Positions 532 to 31,948 of a DNA stretch of 38,735 bases are shown here, piece after piece. Position 1 is the first letter of the stretch; each line of letters opens with the position of its first letter. The stretch spans positions 1 through 38,735 of the forward strand of contig JAPYVG010000017.1 of assembly GCA_028277025.1 (NCBI GenBank), in the 5' to 3' direction. A program made the position numbers and the translations under genes. This DNA is from Sulfolobaceae archaeon (lineage in GTDB: Archaea > Thermoproteota > Thermoprotei_A > Sulfolobales > Sulfolobaceae). The notes beneath the pieces were generated by a model that searched no databases, was not told the DNA's origin, and saw only the letters and a list, made by a program, of their open reading frames with translations.

Positions 532-1113
<582 letters not shown>

Positions 1114-22785: not shown

Positions 22786-22900
22786 GCTTCATTGAATTTT
22801 CATGAATTTGTATTCAATTCTCAGCCCTTGGGCTTCACCGGAGTCACGGGGCATTGTCCCGTTCATACCCCTCCGCCCCTTTAGCGGGATAACCCCAACC
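22786..22900 (-). ncRNA. Putative omega RNA (reRNA) at the right end of the IS607 element
   Basis: TnpB proteins use an RNA from the 3' end of tnpB through RE, whose guide is the flanking DNA. Here the minus strand carries GAATTGAATACAAATTCATG and AAAATTC just before the edge, able to form a short stem. The mini-element has the same stem with GG/CC in place of AA/TT, so pairing is kept. The guide would read into the flank below 22786. The 5' end is a guess. Confidence 0.45.
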
Positions 22901-24084
22901 CACCTACTCCCAGTGGGAGTAAAAAAGAGGTGGGGAAACCCGCACATCTTGAGGTAAATATTGAGAGACGCGTTTAGTTGCCTATCCAGAGTGAACCCAC
23001 ACCTCTCGCAATGAAAAGTCCTGCCGACCTTTCGGGAAACCCATCCACATCTGGGGCAGGACTTGGAAGTGAGGTGTGGGTTCACCTCCTTAACGAAAGA
23101 ACCATAAAGGGGAGCCTTATATTTAAGCACGCGGTGAATAGTCCTCCACACAGTCCTTGAAACCTTCTTAGACAGCTTATCATCAGCGTCTTGGAACATT
23201 GACTGCTTATTCAACTTCTCAACAGCAAAAGTCGTCACAGGATACATTTCCAGCAACTTATTCACAAACTTGTGAACATAATCTAGCACGCGGTTCCTCT
23301 CCCTATGAGAATACTTCTCCATTAACACCTTCCCCTTCCTACCGTGTTTAGAAGCAAAAGACTGTATTTTACTCCTCTTCAACTCCATACCGAATTTTAG
23401 ACTATACAACTCCTTCAAGGAAAATGTAACAAACTTCTCCCCATCATAAGCGTCTAATGTGTACAAGTTACTATCAATTGCTAGGAAATCTATGGGAGTA
23501 AACCAAGGTAACTTATAACGAAATGGTAGGTATACTTTGTCCTCCTTAATTATGGGCTCACCCAACTCAAGTCCTTCAACCCTCCTTGAAAACCAAGTGT
23601 GAGACCAAGAGAAGGTAATATACTCATAAGGTCTTACTGTAATCCTAACTTCTTCGCCCTCAACTTTCCTAAGAGTAGACTTTACCCTAACGTAAACCTT
23701 CTTCAATCTAGGTTTCCTCAATGACGCTTGCCCCTTCTCGGCCCTCCTCTTCCACCCCTTTAATATTGAGTAAGCGTCAATTATAGCCTTGTCCACGTAG
23801 TGGGAAGCCAACTTGTTAACTTTCTCAAGCTCATCCCTTAACGTCTTGTAAACTTCCTTTTTCTTAGGCAGGGTTATTTTGATCTTAGTGGCTTTCTTAC
23901 CTTTCACTTCTTTTCTCTCAACTTTTACCCTCTCCCATAACCAGTCTAAAGCCTTCTGTAGTAGGTGTTTATAGTTTTCTAATAATATCTTGCTCTCCTC
24001 CTTCTTATCGTTCTTCAGAGAGTACGTTAGGTAGACGTATTCCTCCTCCGGTTGGAATGATTTAAGCCTTAAGCTCTTCGACAC
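22789..24084 (-). CDS. tnpB: TnpB, RNA-guided nuclease of the IS607 element
   Basis: The ancestor-type Cas12 nuclease, which cuts DNA matching its RNA guide and so helps the element persist. The RuvC residues are D204 (IDFLAIDSN), E289 (FAVEKLNK) and D367 (TLDRQLNAS), all present. The zinc ribbon has C343, C346, C359 and C362. Length 431 is complete for this class. It overlaps tnpA by 23 nt. Its C-terminal codons coincide with RE and the putative omega RNA. Confidence 0.93.
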   Translation of the reverse strand: MSKSLRLKSFQPEEEYVYLTYSLKNDKKEESKILLENYKHLLQKALDWLWERVKVERKEVKGKKATKIKITLPKKKEVYKTLRDELEKVNKLASHYVDKAIIDAYSILKGWKRRAEKGQASLRKPRLKKVYVRVKSTLRKVEGEEVRITVRPYEYITFSWSHTWFSRRVEGLELGEPIIKEDKVYLPFRYKLPWFTPIDFLAIDSNLYTLDAYDGEKFVTFSLKELYSLKFGMELKRSKIQSFASKHGRKGKVLMEKYSHRERNRVLDYVHKFVNKLLEMYPVTTFAVEKLNKQSMFQDADDKLSKKVSRTVWRTIHRVLKYKAPLYGSFVKEVNPHLTSKSCPRCGWVSRKVGRTFHCERCGFTLDRQLNASLNIYLKMCGFPHLFFTPTGSRWVGVIPLKGRRGMNGTMPRDSGEAQGLRIEYKFMKIQ

Positions 24085-24646
24085 ACTTCTTCACCTTCTC
24101 ATATTTGTGGCTCCTCATATCATATAACTTTCCGCTAAATGATACCATTATAGAGGTCAAGTCTTCGATTAGTCCCTGCTCTGGTGTTTTGTCCTCCCTA
24201 TTTAATACCACGAGCTCGCAGTTGTGTGCTTTGCATATTTCCTCAAGTATATCGAAACCGAATCTAACTAGTCTGTCTGGGTATGCAATGATTACTTTCG
24301 ATACTTCGTTGTTTAGTATCATCCTCAACAACTTGAGGAATCCTTTTCTCTTCATGTTTAATCCAGAACCGACGTCAGTTATTACTTGGTCGTATTCTTT
24401 AACGTTCTCCTCCAAGTATTTTACTTGGTTTATTAAGTCGTCTTTCTGTTTGTTTGATGATACCCTGGCATAGAGTATCACTTTCCTCTTCCTAACAATT
24501 CCCATGAGTCTTTCTACGTCCTCTTCTTTAAACCTCCATTTTCCACTCTGTAGTATCACGGGTTTTATGTAACCCTTCTTAACATAGCTCTGTAGTGTGC
24601 GGTATGATATTCCTAGTTTTTGGCACACTTCCTTAGGTTTAAGCAT
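24062..24646 (-). CDS. tnpA: TnpA, IS607-type serine recombinase
   Basis: Catalyses excision to a circle and insertion at GG-like dinucleotides. The N-terminal MerR-like helix-turn-helix (MLKPKEVCQKLGISYRTLQS) spans residues 1-50. The resolvase-like domain begins LYARVSSNKQ with R61 and nucleophile S63, followed by YPDRLVRFGF. The N-terminal DNA-binding domain is the IS607 hallmark. I use ATG 24646. An ATG at 24667 adds seven residues (YVSLTT) that are unlikely to belong. Confidence 0.92.
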   Translation of the reverse strand: MLKPKEVCQKLGISYRTLQSYVKKGYIKPVILQSGKWRFKEEDVERLMGIVRKRKVILYARVSSNKQKDDLINQVKYLEENVKEYDQVITDVGSGLNMKRKGFLKLLRMILNNEVSKVIIAYPDRLVRFGFDILEEICKAHNCELVVLNREDKTPEQGLIEDLTSIMVSFSGKLYDMRSHKYEKVKKCVEELKA

Positions 24647-24708
24647 TGTAGTTAAACTCACATACAAAGTATATAAACTTCACGGTTTATCGAAAACTGT
24701 TGGCGACG

Positions 24709-25141: not shown

Positions 25142-25363
25142 CTAAAGTTTAGTGAGGGTCACTCTATAAACGTCATCTACCTTTGAGAGTTCTATTTTAC
25201 ATTTGAATTTTTCAGCTAACGGAATAATGTCCCTATATAAAACAGTCGTGTCATCAGTTAAAACTATTATTGTTTCATTTTTACTTATTTTTCTTAACTT
25301 ATTATAAACTATGAGATGGGGCACTGAGCAACATAACCCTATTAAATTTATTTCTTCAGTCAT
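25142..25363 (-). CDS. TusA-like sulfur carrier with altered active site
   Basis: Fits the small TusA/SirA fold in length and pattern: INLIGLCCSVPHLIVYNKL, then NETIIVLTDDTTVLYRDIIPLAEKF, then a final strand YRVTLTKL. The usual CPxP motif is CSVP, preceded by a second Cys (C11-C12 from ATG 25363). A thiol carrier role is therefore likely but the chemistry may differ. ATG 25375 is the alternative start. It is divergent from the TusA-fusion gene and belongs to the sulfur locus that follows. Confidence 0.7.
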   Translation of the reverse strand: MTEEINLIGLCCSVPHLIVYNKLRKISKNETIIVLTDDTTVLYRDIIPLAEKFKCKIELSKVDDVYRVTLTKL

Positions 25364-25431
25364 TTTTACCGCCAAATTTTTAATATATCGAGTAATGAAA
25401 GTTAATTAATCTAATATTTAAAACTATAATT

Positions 25432-26376
25432 ATGGAATTGCGGATTGAACAAGCTCACAAGCTATTGGATGTTGAAAAATTTTCCAGAATTTATATGCTT
25501 AAGAATGTTAAAAAGTTGTATTGGGGTTATGAGGCTGAGTTACAATTGGCGAAATTTATAACATTTAAGTGCTTAGTGTCAACCAAAAACAATCAAGTTA
25601 TAATAACAGAAAAGAGTGGGAAATTCATCATAGAAATTAATATAGATAAAGATGAGGTGGTTAGAATAAAAGTGAAGTCTGAAAACCCGTTACTTAAAGA
25701 GGCTTTAAAACTTAGAATAGAAAAGAATCTAGAGAAACTGAAGGACGTTATACCTCTAGTAAGGGCTAATGATAAGAAAAGAGTAGTATTTATGAAAAGT
25801 ATTGGTGACCATATTCTCGACCTTAGGGGCACAGCTTGTCCAGTCCCGGAAATTGAAACTAAAAAGAAACTCATTGAACTCAAGACGGGCGAAAGTCTTG
25901 AAGTTTTAATAGACAATCCGGCTGCAGTAGAGATAACTTTGCCAGAAGTCTCACGTTTATTTAACTGTAGGTATGAAGTGTTCGATATGGGTGATTACGT
26001 CTCGTTTGTTTTTTATAAGTTATCTTCTACTCCTACGAGGACTGAATTCTTAGAGGCTGTTGAGTCAAAGAATGGGGAATTATTGTCACAGCTTATTAAG
26101 AACGGAGTTTTCCGAGCTTTCCTCTATTCATATTTCGATAAAATAATGAGGAAGATTACTTCTGATATTATACGTAAAGAGGACTTAAGGCACGAAACCT
26201 ATGGCCTTATAACTGCCGCCCCTATTGGTAGGGGGTGGTTACTTACAGCGATAGTTGATAAAGATAAAATTCTCGCAATTAGATTAGACCTAGATAACCA
26301 AGTTTTATTCGGAGAAGAAGCAATAAAAAGACTTCCTATTGAAGGAGAACTAAATTTATTTTATCTTTATCATTAA
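25432..26376 (+). CDS. Three-part protein with a central TusA domain
   Basis: Residues 127-197 are a complete TusA domain (DHILDLRGTACPVPEIE, active C136) closely similar to the stand-alone TusA at 29.8 kb. It is flanked by about 120 residues N-terminal, an alpha-beta domain without a motif I can name (possibly START-like), and about 115 residues C-terminal containing YGLITAAPIGRGWLLTAIVD, also unrecognised. No signal or membrane segment, so cytosolic. The flanking domains could bind the partner or substrate that loads or unloads sulfur. It is the first plus-strand gene of the sulfur locus, separated from the rest by a MITE-like element. Confidence 0.75.
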   Translation: MELRIEQAHKLLDVEKFSRIYMLKNVKKLYWGYEAELQLAKFITFKCLVSTKNNQVIITEKSGKFIIEINIDKDEVVRIKVKSENPLLKEALKLRIEKNLEKLKDVIPLVRANDKKRVVFMKSIGDHILDLRGTACPVPEIETKKKLIELKTGESLEVLIDNPAAVEITLPEVSRLFNCRYEVFDMGDYVSFVFYKLSSTPTRTEFLEAVESKNGELLSQLIKNGVFRAFLYSYFDKIMRKITSDIIRKEDLRHETYGLITAAPIGRGWLLTAIVDKDKILAIRLDLDNQVLFGEEAIKRLPIEGELNLFYLYH

Positions 26377-26410
26377 AATAATTAATAAGTAAAAAAGTGT
26401 TAATAAATAC

Positions 26411-26539
26411 GATAGTGTCGTCACTTGCTTATTTATATTTCTATAATTTTTAGACTTTATATAATATGCGAATTTATTGTTAATTCTTTATATATAGAAT
26501 CAACGTTTAATAAATTTATACCCTAATGACGACACTATC
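26411..26539. mobile_element. 129-bp MITE-like element with 13-bp TIRs and 8-bp target duplication
   Basis: Perfect terminal inverted repeats GATAGTGTCGTCA (26411-26423) and TGACGACACTATC (26527-26539) bound an AT-rich, non-coding interior. Immediately outside both ends is the direct repeat ATAAATAC (26403-26410 and 26540-26547), an 8-bp target-site duplication. These features define a non-autonomous DNA transposon. The parent IS cannot be told from 13 bp. Families with 8-bp duplications, such as IS6, IS1 or IS256, are candidates. Its interior contains TATA-like stretches that could influence the gene at 26585. Confidence 0.75.
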
Positions 26540-26584
26540 ATAAATACAAATAATTTTTTACTTCTAATAGCAAGATAAAATGGG

Positions 26585-26938
26585 ATGATACAAAAGGATA
26601 ATTGTGGCTGTGTAATTGAGAGGAAATACGCATCTGATTATTTACTGAAACGATTTTATCAAGGGAGTAAGGGGAGGGAGATCTGCAAGGCCAGTATAGA
26701 CGGTAGTCGTTCATTTACTTTATACCTATCTAAAGAAGGAATATTATCTTATAAGGCATCAGAATGCCCAATTCTCATAATAACTTTGGAAGCATTATGT
26801 GAAGCGTTCGAAGAACATAAAGGTAATGTTAATCGTGAGAGTTTAGTGAGTAAGGTGAAGTCAATAAAAGGATTTCAGTTCAATACATTATCAGAAAAAA
26901 TCACCGAATTATTTCTTGAATGTTTAAAAGTAATTTAA
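26585..26938 (+). CDS. Cysteine-containing protein of unknown function
   Basis: 117 residues, not recognised. The N-terminus has CGC (7-9), and further cysteines occur at about 33, 60, 71 and 112. The middle (GSRSFTLYLSKEGILSYKAS) is beta-like and the rest helical. ATG start just 3' of the MITE-like element. The gene stands alone between the TusA-fusion gene and the beta-propeller gene. The several Cys residues and the setting suggest a link with sulfur handling, but that is only inference. Confidence 0.6.
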   Translation: MIQKDNCGCVIERKYASDYLLKRFYQGSKGREICKASIDGSRSFTLYLSKEGILSYKASECPILIITLEALCEAFEEHKGNVNRESLVSKVKSIKGFQFNTLSEKITELFLECLKVI

Positions 26939-27069
26939 AGTAATAATTTGTTAAAGATTAATGAGGAATATTTGACTATAATTTGTTTTTTACATATTTT
27001 GCAATAATAGGGTATAAAGGGTTTAAAAACCAATAATTCTTAATATTTTTAATTACCTAAACTCATTTG

Positions 27070-28281
27070 ATGAAGGGGATGTCGTATAGGATCTGGTTAA
27101 TAGTAGGTTTTGTACTAATCGTATTAATAGGCGTAGGTGCAGCATATATAATGTTAAAAACTCCTTCATCTTCTTCGTCGGCCTCCACGTCATCACCTAT
27201 TGTCTCACCGTCATCTGGGTCTTCGCCAGTTAGCAACAATTTCTATTTACTGGTCTTTACACAGAAGGGATTAGTACAAGTCATAGACCCGTTCTCTCAA
27301 TCCTCTCAGTTTTTAGGTTTTCAGCGCGTTGCTAACATATCATTAAACACTCCAGCGCAAGTGTACTATTGGGATGAGGTACCTAATGGACACATGTTTA
27401 ACCAGACTTATATCTTAGTTCCAGTTAATAACGGTACAGTATATATAGTCAACGCCAAGACAATGAAGGTAGTTGATACGATAACGGTTGGTCACAGTAT
27501 AGGCTTCATAGGTGTTGCTTTATCTCCAAACGGGGAATATGCGGCTATAGCAGATGGTCCTTCCGGTAAAGTTGAGGTAATCGATCTAGAGAACTTGCAA
27601 GTAGTTTGGAGTGATACATTTCTTTCACCAGTTAACGGTAAAACGTTCTACCCTTGTGACGTTAGATGGGCACCAAACGGACAGTATTTGATTGTCCCAC
27701 TAAGATTTAATGATAGTGTAGATCTGATAAATGCTTCAAACGGTGCTGTTATTAAAGTTCTAACTACATCTTTAGGTTCCCAGCCTTATATGGTGTCTCC
27801 AAATATGCAAGGTACAATGTTAGCAGTGGAGTTTGCTGGGAACGATTCAGTGGGATTCTATTCATTGCCTAATCTACAATATATGGGCATGGTGACGATG
27901 CCCTCTGGAATAGTTCCTCAGAGAGGGGTATTTACGCCTAGTGGGAACTATTACTTAGAGGCCCCAGCTAATGCAAACGAAATTATTGTGATATCCACCT
28001 CTAACTTTAACATAGTGAGTACAATATCTTTACCGAGTATATCACCAGCTGGATTAGCTGATATAGAATTAACTCCAGGGGGGAGTTATGCTTATGTTGT
28101 TATTCATGGCTCTGTCACTAGTGGCGGAATGGTAGTTCTAATAAACTTAAACACGTTATCAATAGCGTATGAAGTACCCTTAACAACCGCACCAGCGATA
28201 GTTATACCAATAAGTACTTCTACTGCGAACTATTTAGTGGACTATGTTATGTTACCTCCAATAACCGGATTACATTGTTAG
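27070..28281 (+). CDS. Membrane-anchored beta-propeller protein ending in Cys
   Basis: Residues about 7-30 form one membrane anchor ([20 protein letters not shown]), followed by a Ser/Pro/Thr linker (about 32-55). The rest faces outward and has YVTN/YncE-like propeller repeats of about 40-45 residues: [87 protein letters not shown]. The last residues are GLHC. A C-terminal Cys could carry a persulfide or bind metal. N-x-S/T sequons suggest glycosylation. The start is ATG 27070 (ATG 27079 also possible). It leads the run of seven plus-strand genes ending with DsrE. Confidence 0.75.
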
Positions 28282-29190
28282 GTGATTAGGGTGAGAATAA
28301 ATCCATTTTTCTATGTTTTTACCTTTTTTAATTTTACTGTATTTTTACCAATAGTGATAACTGGTTTAAGGGTTTACTTATTATGGTATTCACCCTTAGC
28401 AGATAGTGGACAAAGCAGTTTCTTACATCCTTTCTTGTTATTTGTAGTATTATATTTGGTCTTAAGTTCTATAATAGGAGTTATAACATATAATCTTCGC
28501 AGAGGGAGGTTTATTTTAGTTTATGGCCCTATGAGAATTAGGAACGTTATTAAGGCTACTCTTAGAGATAAAGTAGGGAGAATAATCCTAATAACTTATT
28601 CTATTGCCTACTTTATATCTTACCTCATTGTCTCTGGACTTCTGTTAGTACCTAATATTAATGTAAGTCCGTATTTCTTATGTCTAACACAGTTATCCTA
28701 TGAAGGATATGGAATTCAAGTAATCGGCGGTTACTTTGTATTAAATTATTGGTTACTCGCTTTAGGGGTTTTAAACGATGTAATCTTAACGCTTGCGTTG
28801 GTTTTAGGTTATTATATAATGTCGTTAATTTACGTGTCTTTACACGCATTTGAGTGGAAAGTACCTAAAAGTTTTAGAATGATGATAAGTAATAACATAG
28901 CCGGGTTTTTAACAGCCTCAGTTCCTTCAATAGGCACTATCGCTGGGATCTGTTGTTTAACACCTACTGCTATAAACTCATTGCTCTTTCTCTTGTCATC
29001 TTCATACCCTACTCTAACGAAAGGCGTAATGTGGAAGTACGGTACATTTATAGCTGGCGCCTGGACTGGCGGAATATTGCAAGCGATCTTTCTTTCCTCC
29101 CCTACTATAATTGGGGTGTTTTTAATAGGAGTGGGAATTTACGAAATCTACAAGATCTCACAAACCTTAGCTAACAGGGTGAGAATATGA
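28282..29190 (+). CDS. Polytopic membrane protein of the sulfur locus, unknown family
   Basis: 302 residues with six to seven hydrophobic helices. The segment SVPSIGTIAGICCLTPTAIN contains a Cys-Cys pair in a loop or half-helix, and GTFIAGAWTGGILQAIF follows. I cannot assign a transporter family. The start is GTG 28282, directly after the propeller stop, or GTG 28291. The gene overlaps doxD by 4 nt, so the propeller, this protein and DoxD are probably translated together and may form one membrane complex. Confidence 0.7.
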   Translation: MIRVRINPFFYVFTFFNFTVFLPIVITGLRVYLLWYSPLADSGQSSFLHPFLLFVVLYLVLSSIIGVITYNLRRGRFILVYGPMRIRNVIKATLRDKVGRIILITYSIAYFISYLIVSGLLLVPNINVSPYFLCLTQLSYEGYGIQVIGGYFVLNYWLLALGVLNDVILTLALVLGYYIMSLIYVSLHAFEWKVPKSFRMMISNNIAGFLTASVPSIGTIAGICCLTPTAINSLLFLLSSSYPTLTKGVMWKYGTFIAGAWTGGILQAIFLSSPTIIGVFLIGVGIYEIYKISQTLANRVRI

Positions 29191-29762
29191 GCAAGATAAA
29201 AAATAGGGTGAAGGAAAAAGAAGAGAAGATCACAACAATATTTGATAAAGTATGGCCTATATTATTACGCTTCGGTATAGCCAGCATCTGGATATATGCT
29301 GGGGTCTTTGAAAAGTTACTAAACCCAGGGTTCCTTAACCCTGGTTCTACTTCCTATGTGGGTATAACTATACAAGTCCTTATGCAAGGCCCTATTATGA
29401 GGGGATTCTTGGAGGCGGTAGTTTTGCCCCACGTAATGCTTGTAGGGGAACTTGTAATGATAGGCGAAATTACTTTTGCAATTCTCACTCTTACTGGAGC
29501 CTTCTCTAGACTCGCAAATACTGTGGCCTTTTACACTAATTTTATATACTTTCTTTCAGCGTATTGGGCTGATACTGAGGAGTATGGGATAAATTTACTC
29601 ATGATGCTAGTGGACTTGTATATTATAATAAATGGCGTGAAGGGTCCTTCAATAGACTCTTTAATAGCTAGGAAGTGGAATAAGATAAATGACTGGAAGC
29701 TGTGGTTTTTAGTGGGCTCTTTATTTTATCTTTCTATCATACTTTTCTTATATTTCACATAA
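29187..29762 (+). CDS. doxD: DoxD-family protein (thiosulfate:quinone oxidoreductase-like)
   Basis: DoxD is the membrane subunit of the thiosulfate:quinone oxidoreductase of Acidianus, where DoxA is its partner. This 191-residue protein shows the DoxD pattern: four helices, with WPILLRFGIASIWIYAGVFE, then a long outer loop with NPGFLNPGS, and FLSAYWADTEEYGINLLMM. No doxA is seen nearby, so the partner could be the propeller protein or lie elsewhere. GGTGAG precedes the ATG. The gene is followed by 73 nt containing the promoter of tusA. Confidence 0.75.
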   Translation: MSKIKNRVKEKEEKITTIFDKVWPILLRFGIASIWIYAGVFEKLLNPGFLNPGSTSYVGITIQVLMQGPIMRGFLEAVVLPHVMLVGELVMIGEITFAILTLTGAFSRLANTVAFYTNFIYFLSAYWADTEEYGINLLMMLVDLYIIINGVKGPSIDSLIARKWNKINDWKLWFLVGSLFYLSIILFLYFT

Positions 29763-29775
29763 AGTAATTTAAAGG

Positions 29776-29784
29776 TTTATAAAT
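29776..29784 (+). promoter_or_regulatory. Putative TATA box for tusA-yeeE-dsrE
   Basis: TTTATAAAT lies in the only sizeable gap of the cluster (29763-29835). Transcription would begin near 29805 and leave a leader of about 30 nt before GTG 29836. This would separate the second half of the locus from the propeller-doxD half. Confidence 0.4.
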
Positions 29785-29835
29785 GAACTATTTTTTTATG
29801 CGTTATTTTCGGAAAAATAATTAGGGCGAATAAAA

Positions 29836-30087
29836 GTGAGTGGAGAATTAATGTCTAGGAACCCGGATCAAATTTTAGATGTTAGGGGCGAGTCCTGTCC
29901 AGTCCCAGAAATGGAAGCTAGTAAGAAACTCAAGAAAATGAAGCCCGGGCAAATCTTAGAAGTTATAACTGATCATCAACCGGCAGTAGATGTGACTTTA
30001 CCTTCGCTAGCGAAGAACTTAGGATACCCGTTTACAGTGATTAAAGATGGTGAGGTGTATAGGGTAAGGATATTAAAGGTGAAATAG
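29836..30087 (+). CDS. tusA: TusA family sulfurtransferase
   Basis: A cytosolic sulfur carrier that holds persulfide or thiosulfonate on its Cys and passes it to partners such as DsrE proteins and Hdr-like complexes. [18 protein letters not shown] has the CPxP motif with C21, and the fold is completed by [20 protein letters not shown]. 83 residues from GTG 29836 (ATG 29851 is an alternative). It is followed after one base by the YeeE-type transporter gene, a pairing seen in many bacteria. Confidence 0.92.
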
Positions 30088-30088
30088 A

Positions 30089-31327
30089 GTGGCAAACCCT
30101 AGTATGATTTTACAGCCGGTCTATAACGAGAGCTGGGCAGAGGTTTATGCACTTTTCGCGTTAAGCGGATTTATTTTAGGTTGGGTAGCACAAAGGGGTA
30201 ATTATTGTTTTGTAAACGCTATGACTTCCATTTTTACCACCAGAAGCTTTGAAAGGTTTGGTGCACTTCTGATACTTTTTGGATTATCAGCCTTAGGTTG
30301 TGGTCTATTAGTTGCATTCGGTGTAATTCCAGCTGTAGACCAATATTATTTTAACTATTTCGCCGGCTGGTACATTCTGGTGGGATCCTTTATCTTCGGA
30401 TTTGGGGCTGCATTAGCTGGTGGGTGTAACTTATCAATGTTATATAGGGCTGCAAGCGGTTACGTACAGAACTGGATAGAACTGTTTGGGATGATGATTG
30501 GTACATATGTATTTGCTGTAGGTATTTGGCCGTTCCAGCAATACACTATGGAGAAAGGTATATTCTCTACTACAATGGGAGGTTACGTGGAGTACTTACC
30601 TTATGTTATATTTCACTCAGTATCTCCTATGGCAATTTATATAACGACTTTAGCTCTAGGCTTATCACTGGTGTTTCTAGGGTTATACTTACAGCAATAC
30701 ACTAAAAAGAAATGGTTAGCTAACTTGAGGATGTTCACTCCTACAGTTCCAAGTACTATGACTCTGAACCCATCGCAACAAACGATCAGTAGCGAAAGCA
30801 AGAAAACAAGCTTAAAGCAAGAAATAAAGGATTTATTACTCTTGAAGAAGCCTTATGGTACAAACATATCTACAGTTCTATTAGCTCTTGATATGATACT
30901 AGTATTTGTAGCCGGTGCTGGTTATACTTTCAATTATTTAGTAATCACTTCTTCAGATGGTGGTAGGTTCTTTGAATACATCTTAATGTTATTCGGAGTA
31001 AACTTGTTTACAAACACTCCGTGGTTTAATGACTCACTATCTATAGTAGACCCAAGTACTTTAATGGTCGTAATGTTATGTGTTGGTGCTTTCTTAGCTT
31101 CTTTCTTAAGCGGAGACTTCAAGATCAGAATTCCAAAGGAGAAGAAGAGACTCCTAATAGGGTTCATAGGGGGTATGTTGGTAGGTATAGGAGTAAGGAT
31201 GGCTTTAGGTTGTAATGTGGGGTTAATGTGGACTAATTTCGCACAATTAGGTTACGACGGTATAATATTCTTATTTGGTATGCTAGGGGGAGTATATTTA
31301 GCAGTTAAAGTCCAAGAGAGGCTGTGA
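30089..31327 (+). CDS. YeeE/YedE (TsuA)-type sulfur compound transporter
   Basis: TsuA-type proteins import thiosulfate through a path of conserved cysteines. This 412-residue membrane protein has two homologous halves. The first has GWVAQRGNYCFVNAM (C40) and ALAGGCNLSMLYRAASGY (C113). The second has GMLVGIGVRMALGCNVGL near residue 385. The GCN motif in each half is the family mark. The halves are joined by a polar loop (about 210-255). The substrate could be thiosulfate or another sulfane compound. GTG start at 30089, right after tusA, and a 4-nt overlap with the next gene. Confidence 0.85.
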   Translation: MANPSMILQPVYNESWAEVYALFALSGFILGWVAQRGNYCFVNAMTSIFTTRSFERFGALLILFGLSALGCGLLVAFGVIPAVDQYYFNYFAGWYILVGSFIFGFGAALAGGCNLSMLYRAASGYVQNWIELFGMMIGTYVFAVGIWPFQQYTMEKGIFSTTMGGYVEYLPYVIFHSVSPMAIYITTLALGLSLVFLGLYLQQYTKKKWLANLRMFTPTVPSTMTLNPSQQTISSESKKTSLKQEIKDLLLLKKPYGTNISTVLLALDMILVFVAGAGYTFNYLVITSSDGGRFFEYILMLFGVNLFTNTPWFNDSLSIVDPSTLMVVMLCVGAFLASFLSGDFKIRIPKEKKRLLIGFIGGMLVGIGVRMALGCNVGLMWTNFAQLGYDGIIFLFGMLGGVYLAVKVQERL

Positions 31328-31602
31328 ACATGTTGGAGAGTAGATATTTAAGAAGATTGCTAGCACCTCTTATCCTTTCGCTTTTCGCGATAGGTTGGTA
31401 CAGGTTTAGCGAAATAACGTTATCTCATGCGAATCAGATAGCTCTGAACACTGCTAATTTTGCCGTTTATGTGCAACAAACGCAATTCGATGGTTACCTA
31501 ACGGCTACCAAGTACATTTGTTACGTTGTAGTCTACGTCGGTTTAGCACTCTTCTGGTATAATTTAGTAAAGGTTGTGGAGGTGAAGGAGAAGAATGGTT
31601 GA
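31324..31602 (+). CDS. Small two-helix membrane protein
   Basis: 92 residues with helices at about 10-28 (RLLAPLILSLFAIGWYRF) and 62-82 (YICYVVVYVGLALFWYNLV) separated by a polar outer loop. No family recognised. The start GTG 31324 overlaps the YeeE stop by 4 nt, and its end overlaps dsrE by 8 nt, so it is almost certainly part of the transporter unit, perhaps as an accessory subunit. Confidence 0.65.
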   Translation: MNMLESRYLRRLLAPLILSLFAIGWYRFSEITLSHANQIALNTANFAVYVQQTQFDGYLTATKYICYVVVYVGLALFWYNLVKVVEVKEKNG

Positions 31603-31948
31603 CGTTGCAATAATGATGGTTTCTGGCGAATACGAAAAGATGTACATGGGGATTATTACTGCTATAGGTTATGCTTCTAGCGGGAATCGTATATATATGT
31701 TCTTTACGATGGATGCGTTGAAAGCTCTGACTGAAGAGAACGAGAAAATAGTCCTACCTAACGCTAAACCGCTAAAGTACTATTTAGACAATTTGATAGA
31801 ACTAGGAGGCGACGATTTAGAGATAGCCGCGTGCGAGTTCGGTATGAAGATTAAAGGGATAGAGAAGTTAGCGTACAAAGTTAAAGTCAGCGGGGTCTCT
31901 GAATTTGCAATGAAGAGCAATGAGGCTAAAATAGTCTTAATCTTCTAG
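31595..31948 (+). CDS. DsrE-family sulfur-transfer protein
   Basis: 117 residues. VDVAIMMVSGEYEKMYMGII and the later DDLEIAACEFGMKIKG (C80) follow the DsrE/DsrE2 pattern, in which the Cys accepts sulfur from TusA. In Sulfolobales, DsrE and TusA proteins move thiosulfate groups to the Hdr-like sulfur-oxidising complex. It is the last gene of the cluster. A C-terminal membrane segment is absent, so it is soluble. Confidence 0.8.
   Translation: MVDVAIMMVSGEYEKMYMGIITAIGYASSGNRIYMFFTMDALKALTEENEKIVLPNAKPLKYYLDNLIELGGDDLEIAACEFGMKIKGIEKLAYKVKVSGVSEFAMKSNEAKIVLIF

Follow-up and report, generated by a model that had tools for sequence, protein, structure and literature searches.

The 38,735-nucleotide contig JAPYVG010000017.1 of a Sulfolobaceae archaeon (assembly GCA_028277025.1; the whole stretch is called the window here) carries, within positions 25142–31948, a gene set that is a real unit. 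We read it, with slightly better than even confidence, as a single system for acquiring sulfur that consists of two blocks: a YTD-type (yeeE/yedE-tusA-dsrE) importer and an extracellular, quinone-linked sulfur-handling unit. The import block is of a known kind; for the second, an undescribed unit of a beta-propeller, a polytopic membrane protein (mem302) and DoxD, we infer a quinone-linked role in sulfur handling.

Block A lies on the plus strand and comprises a membrane-anchored, predicted extracellular beta-propeller whose closest relatives are of the YVTN/YncE type and whose last residue is Cys (27067–28281), the 302-residue mem302 (28282–29190), with vicinal cysteines at residues 224–225 (28951–28956), and a DoxD paralogue (29187–29762; PF04173, 177 bits). 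Block B follows on the same strand, with an 83-residue TusA sulfur carrier containing CPxP (29836–30087; PF01206, 73.6 bits), a 412-residue YeeE/TsuA-type transporter (30089–31327; PF04143, 189 bits), a small membrane protein of 92 residues recognized by hydropathy and matching no Pfam or NCBIfam family (31324–31602), and a DsrE-family protein (31595–31948; PF02635, 27.4 bits, and PF13686, 27.1 bits, both above cut-off). The matches of DoxD, YeeE and DsrE, and of the three TusA domains in and beside the set, all exceed the Pfam cut-offs. The stop codon of the propeller gene directly abuts the start of mem302; mem302 and DoxD overlap by 4 nt, YeeE and the small membrane protein by 4 nt, and the small membrane protein and DsrE by 8 nt. 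A reading made earlier from the sequence alone had placed these genes here with overlaps of 4–8 nt, and all are present as described. According to the alignments, every protein of the two blocks except DoxD has invariant cysteines.

The propeller, mem302, YeeE and DoxD were searched for in 31 Sulfolobaceae genomes. The propeller, mem302 and a high-scoring YeeE (>165 bits) were found in the identical 23 genomes, and all three were missing from the other eight (G046, G110, G121, G149, G150, G151, G155 and G156), among which G110 and G151 had only a distant second YeeE. Among these set-lacking genomes, the DoxD gene tree places G110 next to G086, and groups G155 with G154, G143 and G133. Judged by this gene tree, the propeller, mem302 and YeeE were therefore probably lost together in several lineages. 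When the window proteins were mapped by BLAST onto 25 stretches from the 23 genomes, the order and strand of propeller-mem302-DoxD were constant in all 23, as was the order TusA-YeeE-small membrane protein-DsrE, the DsrE frame of G003 being cut by a contig end. In G004 the blocks lie on two separate contigs; wherever a single contig contains both (22 genomes), they are neighbours, with 853–5017 bp between mem302 and YeeE, arranged as tandem A-B (7 genomes), divergent (13) or tandem B-A (2). Scattering of the genes in relatives, which would have spoken against the sequence-only reading, was thus not seen: the propeller, mem302, the DoxD of the cluster and YeeE all occur in those 23 of 31 genomes and stay adjacent despite rearrangement. 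Since order and linkage are constant over 23 genomes, the set goes beyond chance, and the survival of linkage through rearrangement is strong evidence for a joint function.

Outside Sulfolobales, propeller relatives carry the labels Marsarchaeota, Nitrososphaerales and Thaumarchaeota (P0096, P0098 and P0114), and a mem302 profile search gave ten additional relatives (P0139 to P0148), of which two bear the label Nitrososphaerales. For four distant propeller/mem302 pairs, the longest contigs of the two partners are of equal size (19067, 80901, 9952 and 8404), so that the two genes of each pair probably lie on the same contig; a label, Nitrososphaerales, is given for the 19067 pair alone. In two phylum-wide draws of 398 and 386 genomes, strong propeller matches occurred in 16 and 15 genomes, respectively, all among the 31 Sulfolobaceae; in the draw of 398, a further 22 genomes had weak matches only (E 4e-14 or worse), which we took as generic propellers. 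A draw of 400 genomes from one class, centred on an amoA-bearing genome, yielded a single propeller, in G504. We take the class of G504 to differ from that of Sulfolobaceae, given the amoA centre and the absence of the Sulfolobaceae matches from that draw. A 3.5-kb contig of G504 encodes propeller-TusA-YeeE-small membrane protein-DsrE as a single run, with identities to the window proteins of 41% (propeller), 59% (TusA), 66% (YeeE), 43% (small membrane protein) and 51% (DsrE).

These arrangements bear on the possibility, which we regard as doubtful, that block B alone is the importer and that block A forms an enzyme of its own (a quinone reductase that depends on sulfur, or a cell-surface thiol redox enzyme), co-regulated with block B but passing no sulfur from propeller to YeeE. 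Divergent transcription of the blocks in 13 of 22 genomes would fit such a separation, as would the absence of mem302-DoxD between the propeller and TusA in G504. Against it, linkage survives three layouts, and in G504 it is the propeller, not mem302 or DoxD, that heads the YeeE block, which ties the propeller to import.

In block B, YeeE residues C40, C113 and C375 align with the pore cysteines C22, C91 and C293 of Spirochaeta thermophila TsuA (6leo, both halves) and, together with C331, are invariant in 24 of 24 aligned rows. Family membership and these cysteines support a putative role of YeeE in the passage of sulfur. The protein falls far below the cut-offs of the NCBIfam TsuA models (78.5 bits against 400 for NF052577; 71 against 645 for NF041049) and is therefore filed as a member of the PF04143 family and not as TsuA. 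In the TsuA-TsuB fusion of known structure (8k1r), the TsuB part is matched by TusA, whose Cys21 is present in 27 of 27 rows. Likewise, Cys66 of the small membrane protein (24 of 24 rows) and Cys80 of DsrE (23 of 23, one row ending at a contig end being left out) are invariant. Block B contains one DsrE-family match by Pfam, no search having been aimed at DsrF or DsrH. Adjacent yeeE/yedE, tusA and dsrE-like genes in one run, by which YTD clusters are recognized, are found in the window and in all 23 genomes. At three places (L092 12323–13021, L095 11570–12268 and L094 6544–7287), an extra, longer TusA-like open reading frame (ORF) of about 230–250 residues lies beside the 83-residue TusA.

The best NCBIfam matches in this block are YedE/FdhT for YeeE (110.5 bits) and YedF for TusA (46.4 bits), which raises the thought of selenium import of the YedE/YedF type. 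We consider this extremely improbable: both matches lie under the model cut-offs (350 and 79), the TsuA cysteines are kept, partners such as DsrE and DoxD indicate sulfur, and Sulfolobales are not known to have selenoprotein machinery.

Fourteen of the 31 genomes encode a distant second paralogue of YeeE (51.9–76.3 bits), and four more (G026, G148, G133 and G080) gave split or fragmentary matches to it; an ORF of 86–89 residues lies directly downstream of it in all four loci read, of seven. In the accessible part of PMC11323534, a YeeE of Acidianus brierleyi is reported to be 211-fold upregulated on sulfur and stated to be absent from S. tokodaii. We rejected this induction as expression evidence for the window YeeE: G080, which is probably S. 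tokodaii, has a complete YeeE of the window type, whereas its match to the second paralogue is a fragment of only 33 positions. If G080 is indeed S. tokodaii, the sulfur-induced protein is most likely the second paralogue, and the uptake proposal of that paper, as far as its accessible text goes, would need to weigh the present YeeE too.

DoxD matches were retrieved from the 31 genomes, leaving out short fragments in G001, G003 and G138. A tree of the 56 sequences of at least 150 residues (G004 and G138 contributed two shorter sequences, which were left out) separates 24 cluster-type from 32 DoxDA-type sequences by a branch with 100/100 support; the searched genome nearest to the window is G086. 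Every DoxDA-type gene (37 of 37 places, 33 of them distinct) is followed by an ORF of 150–190 residues, and the three of these that were tested by Pfam were all DoxA. The window itself was read earlier as holding DoxD without DoxA, and this is borne out: none of 18 ORFs scanned in it has a DoxA match in Pfam, and a DoxA profile built from the 33 neighbours found nothing in frames of at least 60 residues. Over the 25 cluster stretches, the same profile matched only the four genes adjoining DoxDA-type DoxDs. One cysteine, a feature found in this analysis and not a published criterion, is present in 33 of 33 DoxDA-type DoxDs and in none of 25 cluster-type ones, which have a short deletion there. 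Any sulfur chemistry would need cysteines of partner proteins.

DoxD belongs to the family of DoxDA and DoxD2A2, the thiosulfate:quinone oxidoreductases (TQOs), and here it belongs to a fixed block that also encodes a putatively extracellular protein. Both facts speak for the idea of a second TQO, one that forms tetrathionate and has the propeller and mem302 in the place of DoxA. The window DoxD scores only 24.5 bits against the NCBIfam TQO large-subunit model (cut-off 300), on which one of two DoxDA-type DoxDs reaches 333.4 bits; the other, a DoxD2-like one, scores 138.7 bits and is also under the cut-off. Together with the missing cysteine and the lack of an adjacent DoxA, this makes a second TQO unlikely, and by its sequence features the window DoxD is not of TQO type, so that quinone reduction is proposed here by extension from a distant paralogue. 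The second DoxDA-type subgroup is probably the DoxD2 of the literature (PMC8551704, accessible part). As the DoxDA type already includes this subgroup, the cluster-type sequences form a third kind. In four genomes (loci L087, L088, L089 and L107), about 7 kb separate a DoxDA-type DoxD from that of the cluster, and annotations may have confused the two because of this proximity.

For mem302, 49 relatives were collected and two alignments were made (23 and 46 rows). No Pfam, NCBIfam or PDB sequence match was found. All 59 family members examined have the vicinal cysteine pair, and the motif ICCLTP is retained in distant relatives of 39–45% identity. The placing of basic residues suggests an inside start for the preceding segment, and the pair would then lie towards the outer side. 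At one locus far from the main set (L106, G092:C1:494000-513000), a second, partial mem302 is followed by a cluster-type DoxD with no propeller.

The propeller had been described from the sequence as Cys-terminated, and the last Cys codon is indeed at 28276–28278; a C-terminal GLHC is found in 86 of the 89 family members listed, and a further cysteine is Cys197 (codon 27655–27657). Since 15 of 23 relatives first start at the matching MNYK/MSYK, the protein may begin at ATG 27079 rather than at 27067. The AlphaFold model has a helix (6–28), a low-confidence linker, the propeller, a second helix (383–393) and a low-confidence tail (398–403). Structure matches were YVTN/YncE propellers, thiocyanate dehydrogenase and nitrous oxide reductase; the window protein has the fold in common with YVTN/YncE propellers and thiocyanate dehydrogenase and adds a membrane anchor and the conserved GLHC arm. 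The copper site of thiocyanate dehydrogenase and nitrous oxide reductase is made of several histidines. These matches prompted us to consider a copper-propeller enzyme, which we set aside because the conserved histidines are too few: only two are invariant, one of them in the tail, and the other is not kept in G504. That the propeller is a metal redox enzyme of this resemblance, with a Cys/His site formed by Cys196, His346, His402 and Cys403 (numbering from ATG 27070), is in our judgement quite improbable.

Under the reading that we prefer, a single system of two blocks, block B would import sulfane sulfur through the three-cysteine pore of YeeE, the likeliest compound being thiosulfate or a fragment of a polysulfide or polythionate. 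The imported sulfur would be put on TusA and DsrE, perhaps also on a TusA fusion encoded upstream, and then fed to the cytoplasmic Hdr-like (sHdr) pathway. Block A would act at the outer face, where the propeller, held by one N-terminal helix, may offer its mobile C-terminal Gly-Leu-His-Cys arm and one further cysteine as thiols on which sulfane sulfur is loaded. The vicinal pair of mem302 would lie near the outer side, as the charge distribution indicates, and DoxD, with mem302, would pass the electrons from oxidative thiol loading to caldariellaquinone. A mobile C-terminal cysteine arm that bears sulfur is known from SoxYZ; the arm of the propeller is conserved and has low confidence in the model, as a flexible tail would, and homology to SoxY is not claimed. 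Delivery to sHdr is drawn from work on YTD, SoxT1A and the DsrE/TusA proteins of Metallosphaera cuprina (PMC13293266, PMC11582611 and PMC8551704), and the sHdr pathway is reported for every family member in PMC11323534, in each case as far as the accessible text goes. The sequence-only reading had proposed one system that captures a sulfur compound outside, imports it and feeds electrons to quinone. Its single linked system stands, and its YeeE import, TusA relay and DsrE acceptor are supported by family, conserved cysteines and the published YTD, TsuA and SoxT modules; the substrate, the direction, sulfur loading on the propeller, the electron path and delivery to sHdr we infer.

Several observations weigh against this reading. 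The propeller fold is generic, and the mem302 model is poor, with a predicted local distance difference test (pLDDT) score of 72.5 that falls under 50 around the cysteine pair and with no meaningful match in a fold search. G086, probably Stygiolobus caldivivus, belongs to a genus whose type species is an anaerobic sulfur reducer, so that use in oxidation is not certain. The propeller occurs in one of the four genomes of the family of G504 and in one of 400 of its class, and mem302 was not found in a search of G504 and the three other family genomes, G504 being fragmented and the search having no positive control; block A is therefore not strictly tied to block B. In addition, the literature search found no biochemical or expression data naming these genes.

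Three further genes accompany the set. A 77-residue TusA-like protein (25142–25375, minus strand; PF01206, 44.8 bits) has CC-S-x-P in place of CPxP, with the CC kept in 13 of 13 rows, the window row counted; its gene adjoins the set in 12 of 23 genomes and is thus an optional member. The 314-residue TusA fusion (25432–26376, plus strand; PF01206, 55.3 bits) has a central TusA domain (128–193) flanked by two regions without an assigned family. Its Cys136 and Cys179 are invariant (23 of 23 rows), and the gene adjoins the set in 22 of 23 genomes. A 117-residue protein (26585–26938, plus strand), without a Pfam or NCBIfam match, keeps C7, C9 and C61 in 22 of 22 rows and adjoins the set in 21 of 23 genomes. 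The two unusual TusA proteins noticed earlier beside the set are both present, and the description can be refined to three TusA-type proteins plus this cysteine-containing protein.

The set can be compared with known systems. YTD clusters, described from sulfur disproportionators and cable bacteria, combine yeeE/yedE-tusA-dsrE with conserved hypothetical genes, and the dsrE-like and hypothetical genes are now named DsrEFH type II (PMC13293266, accessible part). Block B likewise strings together genes for a YeeE-type transporter, TusA and a protein of the DsrE family, whereas the window differs from the YTD clusters of that text in its one DsrE match, its small cysteine-containing membrane protein, the joined propeller-mem302-DoxD and its Sulfolobaceae host. 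With the TsuA-TsuB (YeeE-YeeD) thiosulfate uptake system of E. coli and Spirochaeta thermophila, the set has in common three pore cysteines and an adjacent TusA-type gene; the window YeeE is longer than TsuA (412 versus 339 residues, 6leo) and adjoins the propeller-mem302-DoxD block. The SoxT1A module of Hyphomicrobium denitrificans, a proposed sHdr feeder, likewise has a YeeE-like importer, a small membrane protein and an extracytoplasmic neighbour with C-terminal cysteines, a periplasmic protein ending in CxxC. There, however, a DsbA-like thioredoxin stands where the window has a propeller, sulfur is loaded by Sox proteins, and the accessible part of PMC11582611 describes no DoxD. A description of the propeller-mem302-DoxD block, or of its link to YeeE, was not found in our literature search, which covered mostly open-access main texts, and a search with guessed Msed locus tags returned no papers.

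Other features of the window lie outside the set. Just upstream of it, on the minus strand (22789–24667), a MerR-type resolvase gene (201 residues) overlaps a TnpB/Cas12f-like gene (431 residues), a pair that we take to be IS607-like; a similar pair lies between the 117-residue gene and the propeller in one relative (L102, G001). Between the TusA fusion and the 117-residue gene, a stretch of 177 bp (26387–26563) has inverted arms of 46 nt (76% complementary) with exact GATAGTGTCGTCA copies in opposite orientation; it could be either a mobile element of small size or a hairpin with a regulatory role. At 1017–1113 (minus strand), a tRNA was detected by Rfam (51.8 bits) and not by ARAGORN; given its length of 97 nt and this difference, it possibly contains an intron. 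A match to the Sulfolobus sRNA Sso133 (77.1 bits) lies at 603–676 on the minus strand.

How Sulfolobales bring sulfur into the cytoplasm is posed as an unanswered question in the conclusion of PMC8551704 and in PMC5461723, in the parts accessible, and the set provides a defined candidate gene group for this entry in acidophilic archaea of hot springs. The engineered laboratory strain S. acidocaldarius RK88 holds sor, doxDA and sqr, and its sulfate is below that of strong and moderate sulfur oxidizers (PMC11323534, accessible part). Among the 31 genomes searched, G046, a 2.2-Mb genome that may be S. acidocaldarius, lacks the propeller, mem302, YeeE and any DoxD. Tentatively, Archaea that do not rely on Sox proteins may have their own extracytoplasmic sulfur-loading machine, in which the GLHC arm of the membrane-anchored propeller carries sulfane sulfur. 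Mem302, with its vicinal cysteine pair, and a DoxD without conserved cysteines would oxidize the thiol once it is loaded, with quinone as the electron acceptor, and the YeeE pore, TusA and DsrE would receive the sulfur from the arm. If this is true, the propeller would do the job proposed for SoxXA, SoxYZ and DsbA/SoxS in bacteria. The set further defines a third kind of DoxD, families without an assigned function and a terminal cysteine motif present in at least two archaeal classes.

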